Assembly (NCBI GenBank): GCA_003290465.1
Contig: CP030759.1
Location: 1,922,001 to 1,986,000, forward strand
From: Candidatus Sumerlaea chitinivorans
GTDB lineage: Bacteria > Sumerlaeota > Sumerlaeia > Sumerlaeales > Sumerlaeaceae
Direction of reading: 5' to 3'
Length of the DNA stretch: 64,000 nucleotides
Shown here: in pieces, positions 8,947-33,623 of the stretch
Layout: each line of letters starts with the position of its first letter
Position numbering within the stretch: position 1 is the stretch's first letter
Translations under genes and position numbers: made by a program
Notes under the pieces: generated by a model
Told to the model about the DNA's origin: nothing
Database searches by the model: none
The model's input: the letters and a program-made list of their open reading frames with translations, nothing else

Positions 8947-10230
8947 ATGCCCAGCAAATCATTTGCACACGTGACCGCAGTCGTGCTGGGGGGAGGTCGA
9001 GGAACCCGGCTGGACCCACTCACGCGCTATCGTTCGAAACCAGCCGTGCCCCTTGCTGGCAAGTATCGTTTGATAGACGTCGCGATCTCGAACTGCATCA
9101 ACTCGGGGATTCGCAAAATCTACGTTCTCACACAGTTCAATTCTGCCTCGCTCAACCGCCATATTTCCCGGACCTACCAGTTTGACGCGTTCAGTCAGGG
9201 CTTTGTTGAGATTCTTGCAGCAGAACAAACCATCGAGACGGAGAAATGGTACCAAGGTACCGCGGATGCAGTTCGTCGGCAATTGCGTCACATCGTGGAC
9301 AAAGAGGTCACGCACTTTTTGATTTTGTCTGGTGACGCCCTCTACCGGCAGGATTTTCAGGCAATGATTGAAGAACACTTGGCCGACGACGCGGAGATTA
9401 CCATAAGCTGCAAACTCGTGGGTGAAGCGGAAGCGCCTTCGTTGGGCATTCTCGGCATCAACGAGAAACGCGAAATCATTTGGTTCCGCGAAAAGCCTGC
9501 TCCGGAAGAACTCCCTCGCCTCCGTGTGCCCGAAGGTGCGGTCGCGACGCTTGGGCTAAGTTCACCCGATCGTTGCTTTCTCGCTTCGATGGGGACTTAC
9601 CTGTTTCGCAAAGATGTGCTGCTGAAAGTCCTTGCAGAGAATCCGGCTCACGATTTCGGCAAGCAGATCATTCCGGGGGCGCTTGGTCAGTATCGCGTGA
9701 CCGCTCATCTTTTCGATGGCTATTGGGAAGACATCGGGACCATTCGCAGTTTCTTCCGTGCGAATCTGGATCTGCTGAGCGAAAATCCGCCCTTCGATTT
9801 CTATGACCCAGAGCGGCCAATTTTCTCCCATGCCCGGCTCCTTCCCTGCTCGTGGATAGTGGACTCGCACATCGAACGGACGATGGTGGCGGAGGGGTGT
9901 ATCATTCGCAATGCACAGATTCGGCACAGTGTGATTGGCATCCGTTCCGTTATCCGCGAGGGAAGCGTCGTGGAGAACACTGTGATGATGGGGGCGGACG
10001 ATTTGCTGCCTCGTGCCTCATTGAATACGGATGAGATGCCCAGCTTTGGCATTGGGCCGCATTGTGTCATACGCAATGCAATCATTGATAAGAATGCGTC
10101 CATTGGGGCGAACAGCCGGATTGTGAACGAGCAGGGGCTCCAGCGGGCCGATGGCGAGTTTTACGCCATTCGCGATGGTATTGTAGTGATTCCGAAAAAC
10201 GCTGTCGTGCCACCGAATACTGTGATCTGA
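8947..10230 (+). CDS. glgC: Glucose-1-phosphate adenylyltransferase
   Basis: 427 residues with a strong ribosome binding site (GAAGGGAGG) before the ATG at 8947. The enzyme makes ADP-glucose from ATP and glucose-1-phosphate for glycogen synthesis. The nucleotide-binding loop GGGRGTRLDPLT is at about 15-26, followed by SKPAVPLAGKYRLIDV, then YQGTADAVR and the catalytic region LILSGDALYR. The C-terminal left-handed beta-helix hexapeptide repeats (SHIERTMVAEGC, IRHSVIGIRS) are present. Length fits the family. No other glycogen gene is adjacent; it converges on the response regulator gene, 43 bases away. Confidence 0.95.
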   Translation: MPSKSFAHVTAVVLGGGRGTRLDPLTRYRSKPAVPLAGKYRLIDVAISNCINSGIRKIYVLTQFNSASLNRHISRTYQFDAFSQGFVEILAAEQTIETEKWYQGTADAVRRQLRHIVDKEVTHFLILSGDALYRQDFQAMIEEHLADDAEITISCKLVGEAEAPSLGILGINEKREIIWFREKPAPEELPRLRVPEGAVATLGLSSPDRCFLASMGTYLFRKDVLLKVLAENPAHDFGKQIIPGALGQYRVTAHLFDGYWEDIGTIRSFFRANLDLLSENPPFDFYDPERPIFSHARLLPCSWIVDSHIERTMVAEGCIIRNAQIRHSVIGIRSVIREGSVVENTVMMGADDLLPRASLNTDEMPSFGIGPHCVIRNAIIDKNASIGANSRIVNEQGLQRADGEFYAIRDGIVVIPKNAVVPPNTVI

Positions 10231-10273
10231 GGGAGGTGCCTCCGGTGACGTGGGGGCTGCTTGCGCACAGATC

Positions 10274-11092
10274 TCAGGCTGTCGGTGGAAGAGGGCGGGA
10301 TTGGACGCTCATAATCTTCCAGCCCGAAGGAGTGTGTCGCAGGAGGTAGCGTTCGTCCTTGGCTTGGGCCTGCCCGTCCATGACATCTTCGCGCAGGCAA
10401 TCCACGCACGCTGCATTGTGGGCAACCTTGACGGCTGAATCGAGCATGCGCCTGACGATACGCGCACCATTTGCACTCGCGTAGGCTGTTAGCCGGCTCT
10501 GGACGTACTCCTCGCGGCTCAAGCCAGCCTTCATTTCCTCGGCTAATGTTTCATACTCGAGAGCAAAATCACGTGTGTTCCAGCTTTCGATGAAAACGCG
10601 AACCACAGCAACTGGATCCTCTCGCCATCCCGAATCCTGCATGGGAGGGCGCCGGACTTCTGCCGCCGCCTGCTGCATCAAGGTCTCCCCCGCATGCGAA
10701 ATATACTCGCGCCGGCGCAATAAGTGCTCCACCCGGCCCAGAAGAGCCAGCGGATCAAAGGGCTTATAGAGAAAATCGTCGCACCGCAGGCCCGCTGCCC
10801 AAAAGGACTCTGGCTTGTCGGACGTTGCCCCGATACCTGAGATCACGATGAGCGGCATTTGAGCAATCTCTGGGGTCCGACGCACGCGCCTGCAAAACTC
10901 CAAACCACTCATGCCGGGCATACGAAGATCAATGATTGCCAGGTCGGGTCGCTCCCGAATGAGCAACTCCCAACCTTCCTTACCGTCATAGCCGCAAATC
11001 ACATGGTAGGACTTCGTTTTCAGGATTGCCTTGATGAACTCAACAACTTGGTAGTCGTCGTCGACAACAAGGATTTTCCGAGAGTTTGCCAT
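10274..11092 (-). CDS. Response regulator receiver fused to an NTF2-like domain
   Basis: 272 residues from the ATG at 11092; a TTG at 11098 would add two. The receiver domain spans about 6-125. It has the acidic triad VVDDD, the phosphorylatable Asp in IIDLRMPG (Asp55 from this start), the Thr/Ser position in VISGIGA, and the conserved Lys in DFLYKPFDP. After a linker the last about 110 residues look like an NTF2/SnoaL fold: VVRVFIESWNTRDF at its start and ERYLLRHTPSGWKI near its end. No DNA-binding or enzymatic output domain is present. It follows thrC by 12 bases on the same strand, so the two are probably one transcript. What the output domain binds is unknown. Confidence 0.85.
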   Translation of the reverse strand: MANSRKILVVDDDYQVVEFIKAILKTKSYHVICGYDGKEGWELLIRERPDLAIIDLRMPGMSGLEFCRRVRRTPEIAQMPLIVISGIGATSDKPESFWAAGLRCDDFLYKPFDPLALLGRVEHLLRRREYISHAGETLMQQAAAEVRRPPMQDSGWREDPVAVVRVFIESWNTRDFALEYETLAEEMKAGLSREEYVQSRLTAYASANGARIVRRMLDSAVKVAHNAACVDCLREDVMDGQAQAKDERYLLRHTPSGWKIMSVQSRPLPPTA

Positions 11093-23245: not shown

Positions 23246-23388
23246 AGACGTTCGTTCACACTTGATTTGCGGGTTTTGCGGGCGCATGGGGAGAGTTGAA
23301 ATGGTAGGAGTTGGGTCCAGAATCGTTGGGCTCGGGCCAAACGCTAAGCCCCCTACCCCTTAGAATGATGGATGGAAGGGCTCTCGCA

Positions 23389-24798
23389 ATGGACGCTGTC
23401 ACCCTCAGTCGCTTGCAGTTTGCACTCACGGTGGCCTTTCACTATATCTTTGTCCCCCTCTCAATCGGCTTAGGAGCCATTATGGTGATTGTGGAGGCGA
23501 TGTACCTGAAGACGCGCTTAAAAGTTTACGAGAATATGGCGCGGTTCTGGACGCGCATCTTCGCAGTGACTTTTGCGATGGGAGTCGCCAGCGGCATCGT
23601 GATGGAGTTTCAGTTTGGAACCAATTGGGCAACCTATTCGCGATTCGTAGGCGATGTGTTTGGATCGGCACTTGCTGCGGAGGGAATCTTTGCCTTTTTC
23701 CTCGAATCAGGCTTTCTGGCAGTGCTGGTGTTTGGCTGGGACCGTGTCTCACCGCGAGTGCACTTTTTTGCTACGCTCATGGTCTGCCTTGGCTCGATTT
23801 TCTCCGCGGTATGGATTATTGTCGCGAACTCATGGCAGCAGACGCCGGCAGGGTTTCACATCGTTGAGCATATGGGGGAACAACGCGCGGAGATCACGAA
23901 TTTCTGGGAAGTCGTCTTCAATCCCTCAAGCGTCAACCGCCTCACCCACACGGTGATCGGGGCGTTCCTTCTTGGCGCGTTCTTCGTGATGAGTGTCTGT
24001 GCTTACTACATTTTGAAGAATCGTCATGTGGATGGTGCAAAACGCTCGTTCACGATTGCTTTAGTTTTTGCCACGGTGATGGCCATTGCCCAGCTTCTCA
24101 CGGGACATTCCAGCGCGCGGCAAGTAGCGTTTACGCAGCCGGCCAAACTTGCCGCCTTTGAGGGATTATTCAAAACGCCCGAGGGTGGCGCACCCTTGTA
24201 TCTTTTCGGCCACCCCGATTCAGTTCGAGAAGAAGTGCGCTTTGGGGTGCAAATTCCCAAGGCACTGAGCATCCTCGTGCATGGAGATCCCAATAAACCG
24301 GTTACAGGGCTGGACAAGTTCAAACCTGAAGACCGTCCGCCGGTTGCCATCACTTTCCATAGCTACCACATCATGGTGGGGCTGGGGATGCTGTTCATCG
24401 CGGTGACACTCTATGCGTCGTTCCTACGTTGGCGCGGCACACTGTTTGAAAAGCGGTGGCTTATGTGGTTCTTTGTCTTCGCGGTGGCGCTTCCGTACAT
24501 CGCGAACCAGCTTGGATGGATTGCCGCGGAAGTTGGACGTCAGCCTTGGGTTGTGTATGGGCTTTTGCGCACAGCCGATGCCGTTTCAAAGTCGGTAAGC
24601 GCCAGCGAGGTGGCGGCCTCGATCGTCATGTTCAGTGTCATCTACATTTTGTTGTTCATCATCTGGATCTATGTGATGAACGACAAGATCCAGCACGGGC
24701 CGGACGAGGTTCCTGAGGCCCCTGAGAAAACAGAAGTAAAAGAATTGCTCGGCACCGCAGCCGAGATCAAATCCCCTGCTTCGTTGGAGAATGCGTAA
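23389..24798 (+). CDS. cydA: Cytochrome bd ubiquinol oxidase subunit I
   Basis: 469 residues from the ATG at 23389, which has GGAAGGG 8 bases upstream and gives the usual family N-terminus ([19 protein letters not shown]). The protein carries hemes b558, b595 and d and oxidises quinol while reducing oxygen. His18 and His187 (in [10 protein letters not shown]) match E. coli ligands His19 and His186. The quinol loop has [20 protein letters not shown] with the conserved Lys and Glu, and GRQPW is present. It lacks the long Q-loop insertion of the E. coli type. It starts an operon with cydB and the AKR-HemQ gene. Confidence 0.97.
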
Positions 24799-24799
24799 G

Positions 24800-25834
24800 A
24801 TGAACGAGACGGGTATGCTTGATCTGAACTTGTTGTGGTATTTCCTCGTCGGAGCACTATTGACAGGCTATGCGGTTTTGGATGGGTTCGATTTGGGGGT
24901 TGGGACCCTGCACCTGTTCGCGCGCACAGATCTTGAGCGACGCATTCTAATGAACTCCATCGGCCCCGTATGGGATGGCAATGAAGTCTGGCTTGTCACA
25001 GCGGGAGGAGCGCTCTTTGCAGCATTTCCCAAAGCCTATGCGACGGCGTTCTCAGGATTCTATCTGGCGTTTATGATTTTGCTCTGGGCGCTGATCTTCC
25101 GTGCAGTCGCATTGGAGTTCAGGAGCAAACGCCCCTCAAGAGTTTGGCGCAATGCATGGGATGTCGCCTTCTTTCTCGCAAGCACGGTCTCGTCGTTCCT
25201 CTTTGGGGTGGCAGTTGGAAATATGATGCAGGGCCTTCCCATTGGACCGGATGGAGAATACGCCGGCACGCTGATTGACCTGCTGACGCCGTATCCGATT
25301 CTGGTCGGGGTATTCAACGTCGCGATGTTCGCCATGCACGGGGCCATCTACCTTTACCTGAAAACCGAAGGCGAACTGCAGGAGCGGGTGCGCGGGTGGA
25401 TTTGGCGAGCCTACGGCACCTTTTTGTTCCTCTACGTGCTCACGACGATCGTCACCCTTATCCAAGTGCCCAATGCGACCCGGAATTTCCGCGACTTTCC
25501 GTGGGTTTGGGCCATCGTGATTCTCACGGTGCTTGCGATCGCGAATATCCCGCGAGCAGTCTACCACGGCTATCCAGTGCGAGCATTGATTAGCTCCGGG
25601 TGCGCCATGGCAGGGCTCATTTTCCTATTCGGAATCGCGTTATTCCCCAACCTCATCATCTCGACGATTAGTCCGGAATACAACCTCACGGCCTACACGG
25701 CGGCTTCTTCGCAGAAGACACTGGGGATCATGGCAATTATGGCTGCGATTGGAATGCCTTTCGTGTTGGGTTATACCTCCATCATCTACTGGATTTTCCG
25801 GGGCAAAGTAAAACTCGACAAAATGAGTTACTAA
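24800..25834 (+). CDS. cydB: Cytochrome bd ubiquinol oxidase subunit II
   Basis: 344 residues from the ATG at 24800, one base after the cydA stop; an ATG at 24791 would overlap cydA by 8 bases. The start at 24800 has GGAG about 10 bases upstream. It shows LDGFDLGVGTLHLF, GPVWDGNEVWLVTAGGALFAAFP and nine hydrophobic helices, all typical of CydB. It forms the heterodimer with CydA. No cydC/cydD transporter genes follow; instead the next gene, 17 bases away, encodes a HemQ-type heme enzyme fusion. Confidence 0.97.
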   Translation: MNETGMLDLNLLWYFLVGALLTGYAVLDGFDLGVGTLHLFARTDLERRILMNSIGPVWDGNEVWLVTAGGALFAAFPKAYATAFSGFYLAFMILLWALIFRAVALEFRSKRPSRVWRNAWDVAFFLASTVSSFLFGVAVGNMMQGLPIGPDGEYAGTLIDLLTPYPILVGVFNVAMFAMHGAIYLYLKTEGELQERVRGWIWRAYGTFLFLYVLTTIVTLIQVPNATRNFRDFPWVWAIVILTVLAIANIPRAVYHGYPVRALISSGCAMAGLIFLFGIALFPNLIISTISPEYNLTAYTAASSQKTLGIMAIMAAIGMPFVLGYTSIIYWIFRGKVKLDKMSY

Positions 25835-25850
25835 AAGGTGAATTGCCAGC

Positions 25851-27740
25851 ATGACTCAACAACAAGGAATGGATCTCGGGACGGTCGCGCTCGGCACGTG
25901 GAGCGGCGGCCGCTTCATGCACTTTGGGGCTGACGTCGGCGAAGAGCGTTTCATTGGGCTTTTCCGAAAGGCGTACGATCTTGGAATCCGCACCTTTGTG
26001 ACGGCCGACGTCTACGGCATGGGCGAGGCCGATCGGTTGCTGGGGCAAGCCCTTGCCGATCTGGGCCGTTCGAGCTACTGCCTCGTCGGGGCGGTGGGCC
26101 ACGACTTCTATACGGGCTCACGGGCAGGCGAAAAGGGGTTTCCGCGCTTCACTGACCCCGAGCTTCGCGACGACACGCAGTATGCCTCCTATCTTCAGAT
26201 GGCGACTGAGAAGGCGCTTCAGAGGCTGGGCACCGATTACTTCGACCTCCTTCTCCTACACAATCCCGACTGGCTAGGTTACTCTCACCCAAAGGTGTGG
26301 GAGGCGCTTGCCGACCTCATGGAATCCAAGGTGACCCGAATGCTTGGCATTGCACCGGGACCCGCGAATGGATTCACGCTCGATATCCTGAGCGCATTCG
26401 AGCGTTACTCGTCGCTGATTGATTGGGTCATGCTGATCCTCAATCCCCTCGAGCCATGGCCAAGCAACCTCGTGCTACCTGCAGCTGAGCAACTGGGGGT
26501 GAAAGTTCTTGCGCGGGTCGTAGATCACGGCGGCCTTTTCCTTGATAGTCTGCGGCCCGGCGATCCGATCCCGCGCAATGACCATCGTGCCTTCCGCCCC
26601 CCAAACTGGATCGAAGCGGCACAACCGAAGCTGGAACGTATGCGGGAAATTGCGGAAGGCCACGGCATGACCCTTCTTCAGCTTGCATGCCAGTGGACCT
26701 TGGCACAACCGGCCGTAGCCTCGGTGGTTCCGACGTTGATTCAAGAACTCGCACCCCATGCAAAACCAATTGAGAGCTTACTGGAGGAACTGGCGGCCGT
26801 TCCGAAATGCCCCAAGTTGACAGCCACGGAAGTCGAGGAAATCTCGCGATTGGGCGACAACCGCGGCTGCATGCCCCTGAAGGGCGCTTCTTCGCAGTAT
26901 TTGGGGCCGCCAAAGGCAGATCAGTGGCCACTTATGGAGCACCACCGCGAAGCAGCCGAACGGTGGGGCATCGAGCCGGATCGTGATCTCTATTGTCCGC
27001 ACGATCCGCGTGATGTTCGCGAGATCGGCGCCCCTCGCAACGGTGTCGTGCAAGCCATGGATCGGCGCTTGTACCTGCAGTTGCTGGCCTTTGGGGAGTG
27101 CGAGGACACCCCCGCGCTTGCGCATGAGTTGCGCGAGGTCTCGCGCGAGTTTACCGACCCGCCGCTCGAGTGGGTGCTCTATGAGGACCTCGCAGATCCC
27201 CAAGGCGTGGCACTTGTGCTCTTGGACGAAGATCCTCGGCGGCTGATGGAGCGACAACGTTACCTCTGTCGCGCCACCGCACTCGCGCACATGGTGCTGA
27301 AAGAAGACCTTGTGATGTTTGGACGAACGTACGCGACGGGGCGCGATCCAGACTTGAATGAAGTGCTCTTTGAGCGGCCGCGCAATTACCTCTTCAATCG
27401 CTCGTGGCCGTGGGCGGTGTGGTATCCTCTGCGGCGCAAACCCGAGTTCGAAAGGCTTCCGCGGGAAGAGCAGGTTCGGATTTTAATGGAGCACGCCTCG
27501 ATGGGGCGCGTCTTCGGCGAATGCGATTATGCCCACGATGTTCGGCTGGCGTGCTATGGGATGGATCGCAACGACAATGAGTTTGTGGTGGGGCTCGTGG
27601 GGCCAGATCTTCACCGCCTCTCCCGCCTTGTGCAGGAAATGCGCAAGAGCCGTCAGACGAGCGAGTACATCCAATCCCTTGGGCCATTTCTCGTGGGATA
27701 CGCGGTGGCACGCAGCACGGACCAAGCCAACGTCAAATAA
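25851..27740 (+). CDS. Aldo-keto-reductase-like domain fused to a HemQ/chlorite-dismutase-like domain
   Basis: 629 residues. Residues about 8-345 follow the aldo-keto reductase barrel (LGIRTF, TADVYGMGEADRLLG, LGTDYFDLLLLHNPD). The usual tetrad Asp and Lys appear replaced: FDTA is FVTA (Val50) and the ATK-VG Lys falls on Ala81. Tyr55 and His137 are kept. From about 403 the protein resembles HemQ (coproheme decarboxylase): YATGRDPDLNEVLF, WYPLRRKPEFERLPREEQ with the Tyr-Pro-x-x-Arg-Lys motif, and LMEHASMGR with His548 at the proximal heme ligand position, then NEFVVGLVGPDLHRL. It follows cydB by 17 bases, so it probably serves heme supply or maturation for cytochrome bd. Function of the N-terminal half is uncertain. 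Confidence 0.85.
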   Translation: MTQQQGMDLGTVALGTWSGGRFMHFGADVGEERFIGLFRKAYDLGIRTFVTADVYGMGEADRLLGQALADLGRSSYCLVGAVGHDFYTGSRAGEKGFPRFTDPELRDDTQYASYLQMATEKALQRLGTDYFDLLLLHNPDWLGYSHPKVWEALADLMESKVTRMLGIAPGPANGFTLDILSAFERYSSLIDWVMLILNPLEPWPSNLVLPAAEQLGVKVLARVVDHGGLFLDSLRPGDPIPRNDHRAFRPPNWIEAAQPKLERMREIAEGHGMTLLQLACQWTLAQPAVASVVPTLIQELAPHAKPIESLLEELAAVPKCPKLTATEVEEISRLGDNRGCMPLKGASSQYLGPPKADQWPLMEHHREAAERWGIEPDRDLYCPHDPRDVREIGAPRNGVVQAMDRRLYLQLLAFGECEDTPALAHELREVSREFTDPPLEWVLYEDLADPQGVALVLLDEDPRRLMERQRYLCRATALAHMVLKEDLVMFGRTYATGRDPDLNEVLFERPRNYLFNRSWPWAVWYPLRRKPEFERLPREEQVRILMEHASMGRVFGECDYAHDVRLACYGMDRNDNEFVVGLVGPDLHRLSRLVQEMRKSRQTSEYIQSLGPFLVGYAVARSTDQANVK

Positions 27741-27865: not shown

Positions 27866-28363
27866 ATGAAAGCAGTCATTCAACGGGTACGCGAAGCAAG
27901 TGTGAGCGTTGACGGCAAGGTAGTGGGTGAAATCGGAGAGGGCCTCCTGGTGCTCGCGGGGATTGCCAGAGACGACACAGAGGCCACCCTGCGAAGTGTC
28001 GCATCGAAGATTGTCAACCTGCGGATTTTTGAAGACGAAGAAGGACGCATGAACCGCTCCTTGCTTGAAATCTGCGGCCAGTTGCTGGTGGTGAGCCAGT
28101 TCACGCTCATGGCAGATTGCCGACGGGGTCGCCGACCAAGCTTCACGGACGCAGCGCCGCCGGAAGTCGCGGCAGGCTTGTTCGAGCGGTTTGTCGAAAT
28201 CCTGCGCGAACACCCCTGCAAGGTGGAGACCGGAGTTTTTCAGGCCATGATGGAAGTCCGGCTCAACAATTGGGGGCCGGTGACCATCATCTTAGATTCG
28301 GCGGATCTTTTGGCGCCGCGGCGGGGAAAACCTGAGCCGAGCGAGTTCGACAAAACTTCTTGA
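27866..28363 (+). CDS. dtd: D-aminoacyl-tRNA deacylase
   Basis: 165 residues from the ATG at 27866, where the canonical N-terminus [16 protein letters not shown] begins; the open frame extends to 27788 but without similarity. The enzyme removes D-amino acids from mischarged tRNA. The signature [17 protein letters not shown] is present, as is the C-terminal [12 protein letters not shown], which varies from the usual N-x-GPVT by one residue. The C-terminal tail after LDS is about 20 residues longer than usual. It may be read through from the cyd operon; the 125-base gap leaves this open. Confidence 0.95.
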
Positions 28364-28428: not shown

Positions 28429-29301
28429 ATGAAAATCTGGATTGACGGTCAGCTCTACGACAAACACGAGGCAAAGATCAGCGTCTTTGATCACTGCCTG
28501 CTTTACGGCGACGGGGTTTTCGAAGGAATCCGGATTTACAACGGATGCATTTATCGGCTTGAGCAACATTTGGACCGGCTATGGTCCTCGGCGAAATACA
28601 TCAAACTTGCCATCCCTCTCTCACGCGAGGAGATGGTCGCCGCCATCGCTGAAACGGTGCGCGCAAATGGTCTGCGCGACGGATACATTCGCTTGGTTGT
28701 TACGCGCGGGGTGGGCGACCTCGGTTTGAATCCCAATTTGTGTCCGCGACCAACGGTATTTATCATCGCCGATCAGATCCGACTTTTCCCGCAGGAGCTT
28801 TATGAAAAGGGGATTCACGTGATTTCGGCGGCGGTGCAGCGTCAACCCGTGAGCGCGCTGAATCCAAGGGTGAAATCCTGCAATTACCTGAATAGCATCC
28901 TTGCACGGATCGAAGCCAACAATGCGGGAGCTCACGAAGCCCTGATTTTAGACTTGCGGGGATTCGTGGTCGAGGGAACGGCGGATAACGTCTTTGTGGT
29001 TCGTAATGGAGTCATCACTACGCCCCCGGTGTATCTGGGAGCCCTGCGGGGGATCACCCGCGACGCAGTGATTGAAATTGCTCAAGAAAAAGGCCTGCCC
29101 GTCCGGGAAGAACCCTTCACCCTCTACGAAGTTTACGATGCAGATGAGCTATTCCTGACGGGAACAGCCGCAGAAGTGGTGCCGGTGGTGCAAGTGGATG
29201 GTCGCACGATTGGGTCGGGAAAACCCGGCCCTATTTACGCCTGTCTGCTGGAAGAATTTCGCAAGCGAGCCCCTCGAGACGGCTACCAAGTGTACGAATA
29301 A
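28429..29301 (+). CDS. ilvE: Class IV aminotransferase, branched-chain type
   Basis: 290 residues from the ATG at 28429; an earlier in-frame start at 28393 would add 12 residues without similarity. The PLP-dependent class IV fold shows LLYGDGVFEGIRIYNG, the cofactor Lys149 in NPRVKSCNYLNSIL, and FVVEGTADNVFVV and LFLTGTAAEVVPV in the expected order. VFEGIRIY favours a branched-chain amino acid transaminase over D-amino-acid transaminase or aminodeoxychorismate lyase, but the substrate is not certain. It lies 65 bases after dtd on the same strand. Confidence 0.88.
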   Translation: MKIWIDGQLYDKHEAKISVFDHCLLYGDGVFEGIRIYNGCIYRLEQHLDRLWSSAKYIKLAIPLSREEMVAAIAETVRANGLRDGYIRLVVTRGVGDLGLNPNLCPRPTVFIIADQIRLFPQELYEKGIHVISAAVQRQPVSALNPRVKSCNYLNSILARIEANNAGAHEALILDLRGFVVEGTADNVFVVRNGVITTPPVYLGALRGITRDAVIEIAQEKGLPVREEPFTLYEVYDADELFLTGTAAEVVPVVQVDGRTIGSGKPGPIYACLLEEFRKRAPRDGYQVYE

Positions 29302-30481: not shown

Positions 30482-32638
30482 TTGAAGCTTAGCAGAAACG
30501 AAGAACGAGGATCCACGCTGATTGTCGTGGCAGCGTTGCTGTCGGTTCTGCTGCTCATGGTGGCGATGCTGTCCGTGAGCGCAAAAATGGATATGGTGGC
30601 AAGTAGAAACTACGCGGACGCCACCGAGGCGCGTGCAGCAACGATTGGCGCGTTGCCCCGGGCTCTCGCCTACGTTAGCGAAGCAACGACCCTTACAAGC
30701 TTACTGCAACCGTGGAATACTGTCGCAAACGCCCGACCAGAGAAGCAAGTCTCGGCCAACAAGAATCTGAACGGGAAAGCCCCCTCAACCTTTGCGGCGG
30801 ACAACTCATTGGCCCAGCTCTCGATTACCGATCTTGGCAGCAAAGTGAACTTGAATGTTTTTCGTAGCGAACGCGCTTTGGCGCGGTTTCTCGCAGCCGT
30901 TTTCCCTCAAGCCTCGACAGGAGTGCCCGTAGAGGCGCGTGCACACGCGCTTGCAAGCATTCTGGACTTGCGAGAGGACAATTCCACTACCCGCGAGCTT
31001 GATCTGCGCCTACCTCCGACGAAGAGCGGGCGGCGCATCCAGTCCCTGTGGGAACTGCTGGCGGATCCCGCCAAAACGCCTGACCTTTTCTCTTATGAGG
31101 AGGTGCTGGCATTAGCTAATTACGCGACCTGTTTTTCGTTAGCTCCAGAAGTCTTCACAACTGCCGACGGGACAAGTTGGCCTAAAACGCCGCTGGCCGG
31201 CCTGACACCACAGCGCGCTTATGAGGCGTTGCGGCGGGCATTCCCGGAAAAAGACGAGCGGCTGCTCCGCCAATATTCGGTCAATCTGGCGGATTTTTTG
31301 GATGCGGACGATGTGCCAACGCTCATGACCGACCCGCAACACCCTGAGCCATGGAACACGCTGATCGGACTGGAAGAGACACCGTTGATTACCGAAGTGT
31401 ACCCCGATGCTGCGACAAGCGTGGGGGGCGACGAAGGCCAGTTTGTGGAAATTTATAATCCGTGGAGCCACCCCATCACAATGAACAACTGGCGGTTCGT
31501 AATTGGGGGCACCGAGGGCAACAGTATTTTGCTCAACGCCACCTTGCCGCCCAAGGGGTTCTTGATACTCACGGATAACTACGAAACGCCGCGCCAAGAA
31601 ACTCCACCGAGCACTGGGTGCTTTCTGGCCATCTTCGGGGCCCGACGCGACGAAGCCCAAAGGCAGCTCATCGAAGTTCCAAGCTTGAACCTGCCAGATA
31701 AGAACTCGTTCGTCTCTCTTTTGGACGACCGGGGCAATCTGATCGACGTTTTCAGCTATACGAACACTGCCCAAGAAAACTCAGAGCAAAGCTATCAGCG
31801 AAGCGACCCAACCGTGCGCGCCTTCCTTGTGGCAAAAGCGACACCCTTCGAGCTTCCAGAAGGAGCGACATCGAAGACAGTGCGCGCGACGGCCCTGATT
31901 GAGACGGTTCGCAAAGAACTGCGTGCGGATCGGTCCCAAGGTAAAGGGCTTGCGTGGCTGCTTTATGTCCCCACTTCCTATGTGGGCTTCGAGCACAGCG
32001 ACGGGCGCAGCCGATTTAAACCCGCTCTTTGGCAAACCCCGGATCGGCGAGTGGCTGGCCAGCTCGGACAGCAAGGAGCCGTAACAAACCTCGACGCGCG
32101 GGTGCTCGATGTCTTTACGGTTGAGGAGCTTCGCCCCCGCCCGGCTGCGTCGGGTGGCAAACAACCTTTTGGATCGGAGGAACTGAGTAAAGTCTCCTCT
32201 GCGAAGCAGTCTCCCTCCGCGGGCGAGACGACTGCTTACGCTTACGGGCGGCTCAATTTGAACACGTGCTCGAAGCAGGCGCTTTATGCTCTCGATGCAG
32301 AAGCAAATGGGATCAATCTTTTGCCCCCAGAAGTCATTCAGCAAATCGAGCAATATCGTGTTCAACGTTATAGCGCTGGGGAAACGCCTTTCCGCAACGT
32401 GAGTGAATTTGTTGCCGCCTTTTTCGCGAACGTGGAGCCTGATGCGCTGCCTGCACTGGATAAGCTCCTGAGCCAAGTCACCGTCAGCAGTGCCGCTTTC
32501 GAGATCATCGCCGAAACGCGCCCTCCTGCGCTCGAGGCAACGAAGGATTCGCGCGCACCCGCTGTCGTGCTTGCGAAATGGACAGTTGCACTTGATTTTG
32601 CCCCTTGGGCACTTCTTGATTTCAGGGTAAAGCCGTGA
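30482..32638 (+). CDS. GspK-like minor pseudopilin with an inserted lamin-tail domain
   Basis: 718 residues with a TTG start. The N-terminus ERGSTLIVVAALLSVLLLMVAML is a pseudopilin-like leader and helix, without a clear Gly/Phe class III site but with the GST-L-I-V-V pattern of GspK. The alpha-helical GspK body follows. At about 300-445 a lamin-tail domain is inserted: LITEVYPDAATS, EGQFVEIYNPWSHPI, NNWRF and PPKGFLILTDN. The C-terminal part (about 589-640) has the helix-hairpin-helix GRLNLNTCSKQALYAL and LPPEVIQQIEQYR, characteristic of GspK. It heads a row of five pseudopilin genes, so it likely caps the pseudopilus tip. GspK proteins are usually near 300-350 residues, so this is about twice as long. 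Confidence 0.85.
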   Translation: MKLSRNEERGSTLIVVAALLSVLLLMVAMLSVSAKMDMVASRNYADATEARAATIGALPRALAYVSEATTLTSLLQPWNTVANARPEKQVSANKNLNGKAPSTFAADNSLAQLSITDLGSKVNLNVFRSERALARFLAAVFPQASTGVPVEARAHALASILDLREDNSTTRELDLRLPPTKSGRRIQSLWELLADPAKTPDLFSYEEVLALANYATCFSLAPEVFTTADGTSWPKTPLAGLTPQRAYEALRRAFPEKDERLLRQYSVNLADFLDADDVPTLMTDPQHPEPWNTLIGLEETPLITEVYPDAATSVGGDEGQFVEIYNPWSHPITMNNWRFVIGGTEGNSILLNATLPPKGFLILTDNYETPRQETPPSTGCFLAIFGARRDEAQRQLIEVPSLNLPDKNSFVSLLDDRGNLIDVFSYTNTAQENSEQSYQRSDPTVRAFLVAKATPFELPEGATSKTVRATALIETVRKELRADRSQGKGLAWLLYVPTSYVGFEHSDGRSRFKPALWQTPDRRVAGQLGQQGAVTNLDARVLDVFTVEELRPRPAASGGKQPFGSEELSKVSSAKQSPSAGETTAYAYGRLNLNTCSKQALYALDAEANGINLLPPEVIQQIEQYRVQRYSAGETPFRNVSEFVAAFFANVEPDALPALDKLLSQVTVSSAAFEIIAETRPPALEATKDSRAPAVVLAKWTVALDFAPWALLDFRVKP

Positions 32639-32813
32639 GCGAACATGTGATTTTTGCGAGTTTAGGCCGCAAGAGGGTGCGGTGGTGGCGAGTTTCTTTT
32701 GTGCGCGATGGAGCATTGCCTGAGGGAATCCAGCTTTTTGCGCACGCAAGGTTGACACCTTCAAAGGGTGGGTCATATACGTTGGCAGGACAGAACGCGG
32801 AAGCCTGAGACAA

Positions 32814-33623
32814 ATGAGATACACCAGACCATACTCGTCCGGACAAAAGGGTTTCACCCTTGCGGAAATGCTTATTGTGGCGGCGCTGATCGCCTTGTTC
32901 TCAGGCATCGCGATCTTCAGCATCGAGACCCAGTACACGCTGAACAAACAGAAGGCGGCGGTGGCGGAGTGTCGCCAAATTGCCACCGCAATGAGTTTCG
33001 CCCAACAAGACCTTGGGTTTTATCCGAAAATCTGCTTTTTGCGCCACAACTCCATTAATCTGATTTCGCTACTCACAGGAATGGGGTTCGATGCCGTCGA
33101 ATATCACAGTTACCCGATTGGCGATCTGCAGAGCCGGCTACTGAAACAATGGAAAGGCCCATACGCCGCGTTTTCGCAGGATCGGCTCATCCGCATGCAA
33201 TTCACCAGCAACAGTGTGACAAAAGAGTTCGATTGGCCCGCGGATCCGTTTGGGAATCCGTATGTGGCGTACTTCATCACGACCGACCCGCCGGGTCCGG
33301 GGAATCCGACGATCCGCCATCGCTTTATCTCGAACGCGGGTGAAAAACCCAACGAGTTTGCCGGCATCGTGAGTTACGGACGCAATCGTGTTCCCGGCCT
33401 TGGCGACATGCCTGACCCCACGGCGGTCAACACGCGCAAGGGCTATCGGCTGTATACGGAAACGGCGAATCCGCGTCTATTCACGCTGCTGGGGCCGACG
33501 GATTACAATGCGTTTCCGGGGTTGGTGAACATGATTCTAATCGATCCCTTGGCACCCCCGGTCGACACGTTGGGACCCCGAATTCGCGAAACAGGGTCGG
33601 ATGACCGGTACGTAGAATTCTAA
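32814..33623 (+). CDS. Pseudopilin 1 of the cluster
   Basis: 269 residues. The leader MRYTRPYSSGQKG is cut before FTLAEMLIVAALIALF; Glu5 of the mature form is present. The C-terminal domain keeps the GspG-like WPADPFGNPYVAYF turn and ends in GSDDRYVEF. The 175-base gap from the GspK-like gene could hold a second promoter. It is followed by four more pseudopilins at short intervals, so all should be assembled together into a pseudopilus or minor-pilin tip. Confidence 0.88.
   Translation: MRYTRPYSSGQKGFTLAEMLIVAALIALFSGIAIFSIETQYTLNKQKAAVAECRQIATAMSFAQQDLGFYPKICFLRHNSINLISLLTGMGFDAVEYHSYPIGDLQSRLLKQWKGPYAAFSQDRLIRMQFTSNSVTKEFDWPADPFGNPYVAYFITTDPPGPGNPTIRHRFISNAGEKPNEFAGIVSYGRNRVPGLGDMPDPTAVNTRKGYRLYTETANPRLFTLLGPTDYNAFPGLVNMILIDPLAPPVDTLGPRIRETGSDDRYVEF

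Follow-up and report, generated by a model that had tools for sequence, protein, structure and literature searches.

In Haloferax volcanii, whose genome has the Ahb (siroheme) route and lacks UroD, CgoX and CpfC, a ChdC domain is joined to a second domain in PitA, a protein that is needed for aerobic growth, with rescue by heme, while AhbD serves anaerobic growth; the second, ABM domain held heme in the purified protein, and Kosugi et al. left the source of PitA's coproheme open (PMC5746218). Adjoining ahbD and hemQ genes have also been recorded (PMC10548856). The catalytic Tyr of ChdC lies near propionate 2 (Tyr147 in Listeria; for the roles of individual residues see PMC7611857 and PMC10427985), at a position that is occupied by Ile in chlorite dismutases (PMC7611857). 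Here we describe a protein of Candidatus Sumerlaea chitinivorans in which a ChdC/HemQ domain follows an aldo-keto reductase (AKR) barrel on a single chain, and compare its residues, gene neighbourhood and host genomes with these systems.

An AKR barrel and a ChdC domain on one chain

The window, a 64,000-nucleotide stretch of contig CP030759.1, carries on its forward strand an uninterrupted open reading frame of 629 codons (25851..27740), of which four homologues with an identical architecture are known from other genomes. A preliminary description had read it as an AKR-like domain fused to HemQ, and both the domain search and the structures agree: PF00248 (residues 13-295, E 2.5e-26, 92.9 bits against a cut-off of 24) and PF06778 (residues 517-617, E 2.6e-13, 50.5 bits against a cut-off of 25) match the same chain, the latter inside residues 400-625, where the HemQ half had been placed, and over the second half of the Cld domain only. 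PF06778 is also detected in the L009 and L010 fusions. The chain divides into an AKR-like TIM barrel (residues 1-345; 25851..26885), a linker (residues 346-387; 26886..27011) and a ChdC/HemQ domain (residues 388-622; 27012..27716), the last of which is supported by structure prediction and fold search as well as by PF06778. A model of the full-length fusion (pLDDT 81, pTM 0.69) consists of the AKR barrel and a poorly ordered linker, with pLDDT below 50 at residues 339-359; the linker can nevertheless be aligned in all five known fusions, with 52-75% identity among them over residues 336-387. A chance fusion or assembly error is ruled out, as five assemblies agree. The Pfam scan found no ABM domain in the fusion, which is thus not a member of the PitA family, the likeness lying in layout and pathway setting.

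Modelled separately with AlphaFold2 and 31 homologues, residues 386-629 are predicted to form a full double ferredoxin fold of the ChdC type (pLDDT 93.6), for which ChdCs are the top fold matches (Z 18.9-20.6, rmsd 2.4-3.7, 201-212 residues aligned), followed by chlorite dismutases (Z ~17) and DyPs (Z below 14). Both motifs singled out in the preliminary description are present, WYPLRRK at residues 524-530 and LMEHASMGR with His548. In the HMM alignment, Tyr525 to Arg529 (Tyr-Pro-Leu-Arg-Arg; 27423..27437) fall on the FYPMSKK segment of Listeria ChdC, with Tyr525 as the catalytic Tyr, and the proximal heme ligand His548 (27492..27494) on the His of RDHGLIGR; Tyr525, Arg529 and His548 are invariant across 36 homologous sequences. 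The C-terminal half is considered ChdC-like because Tyr525 stands where chlorite dismutases have Ile. Leu527 and Arg529 correspond to what we take to be Met149 and Lys151 of Listeria ChdC. Scores against the NCBIfam HemQ equivalogs HemQ_actino and PRK12276 are far below the cut-offs (31.2 and 24.4 bits against 235 and 253), and by such sequence comparison the ChdC half lies outside the actinobacterial and firmicute HemQ clades, in a different ChdC clade.

Upstream on the same strand lie cydA (23389..24798; PF01654, E 8.1e-172), whose reading frame opens with a TTG at 23311 and has its likely start at about 23389, and cydB (24791..25834; PF02322, E 7.8e-103; TIGR00203 above cut-off), encoding cytochrome bd oxidase subunits I and II. 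The fusion had been described as starting 17 bases after cydB, a figure that is correct when counted from stop to ATG and leaves 16 bases in between (25835..25850), among which is a Shine-Dalgarno-like AGGTGA. Downstream, also on the forward strand, are genes whose products were read from sequence as a D-aminoacyl-tRNA deacylase-like protein (dtd, 27866..28363) and a branched-chain/D-amino-acid aminotransferase-like protein (28429..29301). The order cydA-cydB-fusion-dtd-aminotransferase recurs in all three Sumerlaeota genomes with the fusion (compare L004 and L005), which represent two genera. At the cydB/fusion junction no terminator-like site was found, the regional count of such sites being at the level of shuffled sequence. 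Gene order and spacing suggest that cydAB and the fusion are probably co-transcribed, as had been proposed. Further along the window, a large open reading frame at 30482-33623 reads as a GspK-like minor pseudopilin and is followed by a type II secretion pseudopilin-like frame.

Residue conservation in the AKR half

The AKR half matches AKR11/Kv-beta AKRs at Z 26-27, with AKR11A (1pyf) at Z 26.7. The Asp-Tyr-Lys-His tetrad of functional AKRs is incomplete in all five fusions, and the proposal that Asp and Lys are lost and Tyr and His kept holds throughout the alignments. The Asp position, where PDB AKRs align with Val50 (25998..26000), is Val in three fusions and Met in two (V/V/V/M/M), and Tyr55 (26013..26015) and His137 (26259..26261) are invariant. 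The tetrad Lys is replaced by Ala81 in alignments to AKR11B4 and MtmW and by the invariant His84 in the alignment to Kv-beta-2; under either alignment, the segment between them (26091..26102) contains no Lys. In addition, the Kv-beta-type Q-x-x-E-N adenine-binding motif is unrecognisable in the profile alignment of the AKR half, and the loop after the last AKR strand carries an insertion.

Despite its broken tetrad, the AKR half is the better conserved of the two, with pairwise identities of 59-76% against 47-70% for the ChdC half and the higher value in nine of ten fusion pairs; in the L008/L010 pair the halves are about equal (73% and 74%). The C-terminal face of the barrel is the side on which AKRs bind cofactor and substrate. 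In the fusions this face, defined as the C-terminal ends of the eight strands plus the eight positions after them, is 70% invariant compared to 41% elsewhere, a contrast that is reached by 5 of 327 circular shifts. Because conservation exceeds that of the ChdC half and falls mostly on the catalytic face, the AKR half is not a decayed passenger, and selection on this face in spite of the lost tetrad residues implies that a ligand site is still maintained. The residues invariant in the five fusions include His24, His84, His137, His245, Arg99, Arg222, Arg246 and Arg249, a His and Arg set that would suit a propionate-bearing tetrapyrrole; Asp85 is likewise invariant and shares the conserved face with Tyr55, His84 and His137. 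Constraint at the barrel mouth thus speaks more for ligand binding or catalysis than for a bare scaffold. The AKR half probably binds a ligand, and NADPH not in the usual way; that the ligand may be a tetrapyrrole is suggested by the constraint together with the analogy to PitA.

Distribution of the fusion and heme genes of its hosts

PF06778 genes occur in 3 of 40 Candidatus Sumerlaeota genomes, and all three are AKR-ChdC fusions. The genomes (G000, 96% complete and in one contig, G029 and G030) belong to one family. A wider scan of 84,980 species genomes for exact matches to the two most conserved peptides, which divergent fusions could escape, found full-length fusions at L007 and L009 (Sumerlaeota), L008 (labelled Gemmatimonadetes) and L010 (labelled Latescibacteria), so that five genomes carry the fusion in total, three from Sumerlaeota plus those of L008 and L010. 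The other 76 loci kept from the scan comprise 75 stand-alone ChdCs and one ferrochelatase fusion (L013); L051, L075 and L044 were rejected as further fusions, their N-terminal extensions being out-of-frame or unrelated translations. Across 75 genomes searched with a profile of the AKR half, only the five fusion loci match at E up to 1e-45, and there is no stand-alone copy of this AKR subfamily among them. Plasmids contained neither the fusion nor a match to its ChdC half, viral contigs no relative of the fusion, and PADLOC gave no match; a literature search on AKR-ChdC fusions, TIGR04053 or tetrad-less heme-binding AKRs found nothing.

In a tree of ChdC halves the two fusion groups stand apart. 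Since the AKR halves and linker align without gaps across the five fusions, a single fusion event followed by transfer or loss appears likelier than two events. Around the L008 and L010 fusions there are no cyd genes within 10 kb, the neighbours reading instead as a deaminase gene and corrinoid-type transporter genes; the suggested link to cytochrome bd therefore holds for all three Sumerlaeota genomes and is not general.

None of G000, G029 and G030 has a ferrochelatase (CpfC) or a CgoX/PPOX above cut-off, and UroD gives at most weak partial matches; as Sumerlaeota have many UroD paralogues, those in G000 and G029 were not taken as HemE. HemB is present in all three, and each genome has two PF17805 copies, representing the siroheme decarboxylases AhbA/AhbB (PF22451/PF17805 confirmed for the L137 proteins of G029). 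The AhbC candidates of G000 and G029 score best to NirJ1 (625 and 604 bits, against 520 and 531 for TIGR04546), yet stay under both equivalog cut-offs, each of which is 650; in G030 the AhbC/NirJ1-type radical SAM copy is truncated at a contig end. With ferrochelatase and CgoX absent and no convincing UroD found, any coproheme made by the Sumerlaeota host would come from the siroheme (Ahb) route.

No protein in the three genomes qualifies as the AhbD equivalog (TIGR04545, 289-299 bits against a cut-off of 500), and their nearest AhbD relative is TIGR04053 (425-447 bits against a cut-off of 395). An Ahb route that lacks an AhbD equivalog makes the fusion the best candidate for an oxygen- or peroxide-dependent last step. 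Six other scanned Sumerlaeota AhbD-like proteins score best to AhbD, and their genomes are without Cld; this exchange of AhbD and ChdC counts as one evolutionary event, as the three fusion genomes belong to one family. An independent case of the same pathway pattern is the complete Planctomycete chromosome CP087563 (L018, G049), which has AhbC, TIGR04053 followed by a fused AhbAB, and a stand-alone ChdC, and in which ferrochelatase was not found. On this chromosome the TIGR04053 gene directly precedes fused AhbA-AhbB at L136:7830-11683, and AhbC is divergent, an arrangement pointing to a role of TIGR04053 in heme synthesis. Genomes with ChdC of the fusion's clade often also encode AhbD-like radical SAM proteins of ~260-340 bits, under the AhbD cut-off, and those scanned from G000, G029, G030 and G049 are TIGR04053. 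In the genomes of L008 and L010 (G040 and G041), neither ferrochelatase nor an AhbC/AhbD-type radical SAM protein was found. According to PMC8092238, Sumerlaeota are facultative anaerobes that possess bd-type oxidases, a lifestyle in keeping with a need for both an oxic and an anoxic last heme step.

The stand-alone relatives (L011-L086) come from Acidobacteriota, Myxococcota, Planctomycetota, Elusimicrobiota, Omnitrophota and others; they share ~43-55% identity with the fusion over residues 388-622, together with its WxWAVWYPLRR and EH motifs, but have no AKR domain. Members of this clade can sit in ordinary coproporphyrin operons: the ferrochelatase-joined L013 (Omnitrophota MAG; fusion at 9005-10711) belongs to a compact coproporphyrin-pathway operon, hemDE-cgoX-[ferrochelatase::ChdC], and L064 has the order hemA-hemCD-hemB-chdC-hemE-ferrochelatase. 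L035 reads cobA/hemD-hemB-ahbD-chdC and L069 is similar. In these two deltaproteobacterial MAGs, ahbD (TIGR04545 above cut-off) lies directly upstream of chdC (L035:5653-7852; L069:8586-10702), so that a coproheme decarboxylase that works without oxygen is encoded next to one that depends on peroxide.

Proposed role and relation to known systems

Taken together, sequences, models and analogy lead us to favour, with some confidence, a two-part heme-biosynthesis protein, whose ChdC half would finish coproheme made by the siroheme route and whose AKR half would bind a ligand. AhbA/AhbB would convert siroheme to didecarboxysiroheme, and the AhbC/NirJ1-type radical SAM enzyme would convert the latter to coproheme, which the ChdC half would bind through His548 and oxidise with H2O2, so that a radical on Tyr525 could turn two propionates into vinyls and yield heme b. 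Given oxygen or peroxide, the ChdC half would thereby perform the last step, replacing or acting beside an AhbD-type enzyme, and co-occurrence and neighbourhood make the TIGR04053 radical SAM protein a possible anaerobic counterpart. The AKR barrel would bind a ligand, likely coproheme or heme b, which it would hold or pass on in the manner proposed for the PitA ABM domain, and the position behind cydAB in Sumerlaeota would let heme finishing rise together with demand from cytochrome bd. A bolder and more doubtful version has the barrel turned from an NADPH reductase into a tetrapyrrole binder that takes heme b from the fused decarboxylase, guards it against peroxide and passes it on to apoproteins, cytochrome bd among them; if true, this would be an AKR-fold heme chaperone within a hybrid siroheme/ChdC heme pathway. 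Several observations weigh against the two-part reading: the AhbC candidates are sub-cut-off, Lys151 and Met149 are exchanged for Arg529 and Leu527, the HemQ equivalog scores are far too low, and G040 and G041 yielded no ferrochelatase and no Ahb-type radical SAM protein that could account for coproheme there.

How far the barrel takes part is where alternatives concerning the AKR half diverge. The ChdC half might make heme b while the AKR half serves only as a scaffold for oligomerisation or targeting, for example by stabilising the ChdC pentamer or by bringing the enzyme close to the membrane oxidase. In favour of this are the two missing tetrad residues and the lack of a recognisable adenine-binding motif, the gene order with cydAB in Sumerlaeota and the fact that Kv-beta, a close fold match, is a channel subunit; against it, the invariant residues cluster on the catalytic face of the barrel rather than on the outer helices, and conservation is higher in the AKR half than in the enzyme half, so that we consider it possible and rather doubtful. 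The same face, which carries Tyr55, His84, Asp85 and His137 unchanged in every one of the five fusions, could also belong to an active redox enzyme with a rebuilt site (Tyr55, His137, His84-Asp85), for instance for NAD(P)H-linked peroxide supply or a tetrapyrrole side-chain step; with neither Lys nor Asp at the tetrad places, Q-x-x-E-N unrecognisable and an insertion in the loop after the last strand, such an activity seems distinctly unlikely.

Other alternatives concern the ChdC half. Coproheme decarboxylation may instead be the task of TIGR04053, with the fusion in some other or secondary role, such as that of a peroxide scavenger or heme sensor encoded in the oxidase operon; the standing of TIGR04053 as nearest AhbD relative in the fusion-bearing Sumerlaeota genomes and the adjacency of its gene to ahbAB in the Planctomycete chromosome lend this some weight, yet neither the catalytic Tyr nor the proximal His of ChdC varies among the fusion and its homologues, these homologues lie in heme operons and in one case are joined to ferrochelatase, and the coexistence of AhbD with ChdC is on record (PMC5746218; PMC10548856), all of which makes us regard this alternative as unlikely. 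The preliminary description had proposed a heme-supply or heme d role, of which heme supply is backed by the heme-gene content and heme d specificity is unsupported: a maturation factor for heme d specific to cytochrome bd would explain the place behind cydAB in three genomes, but no cyd genes lie near two of the five fusions, and in the same family four of the five remaining Sumerlaeota genomes encode cydA and no Cld. To our knowledge, most bd-containing bacteria have no AKR-ChdC-like protein, and we consider the heme d function highly improbable. Hardly credible, too, is a true chlorite dismutase, for which the family name of PF06778 and Arg565, two residues past the distal column (Asp563 in the HMM alignment), could be cited; it was rejected on the Tyr that replaces Ile and on the better fit of ChdC structures, and the heme-operon context of the homologues also opposes it.

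On the two-part reading, the locus provides a bacterial example of what appears to be the haloarchaeal ending of the siroheme route, with coproheme passing to a peroxide-dependent decarboxylase; lacking CgoX, CpfC and a convincing UroD, this bacterium becomes a second system for testing where PitA-type proteins obtain coproheme. The AKR half is a clear instance of an enzyme fold that loses its chemistry and keeps a highly conserved pocket, and since its partner enzyme makes a toxic product that requires a carrier, heme hand-over becomes a testable idea.

Compared to ChdC/HemQ of Listeria, Geobacillus and Corynebacterium, the fusion shares fold, catalytic Tyr and proximal His, but has only ~15-20% identity by structural alignment, Leu for Met149 and Arg for Lys151 (Listeria numbering), an N-terminal AKR domain and a host that is not a CPD genome. 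With AKR11/AKR6 proteins (IolS, GSP69, Kv-beta-2) it has in common the TIM barrel (Z 24-27, ~20% identity) and the tetrad Tyr and His; it differs in lacking the tetrad Asp and Lys and a recognisable adenine-binding motif, and in being always ChdC-fused in the genomes searched. AhbD, the radical SAM heme synthase of the siroheme pathway, would carry out the same reaction as that proposed here, coproheme to heme b, but is an unrelated, oxygen-independent protein whose equivalog is absent from the fusion-bearing Sumerlaeota genomes. Closest in design is PitA, which likewise joins a ChdC half to a second domain in an Ahb-route genome; there, however, the partner is a C-terminal ABM domain after a His-rich linker instead of an N-terminal AKR barrel, and Haloferax also has AhbD, in whose place the Sumerlaeota fusion genomes have TIGR04053. 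In summary, the fusion looks like a new version, with another partner, of the ChdC-plus-partner design so far described only in salt-loving archaea.
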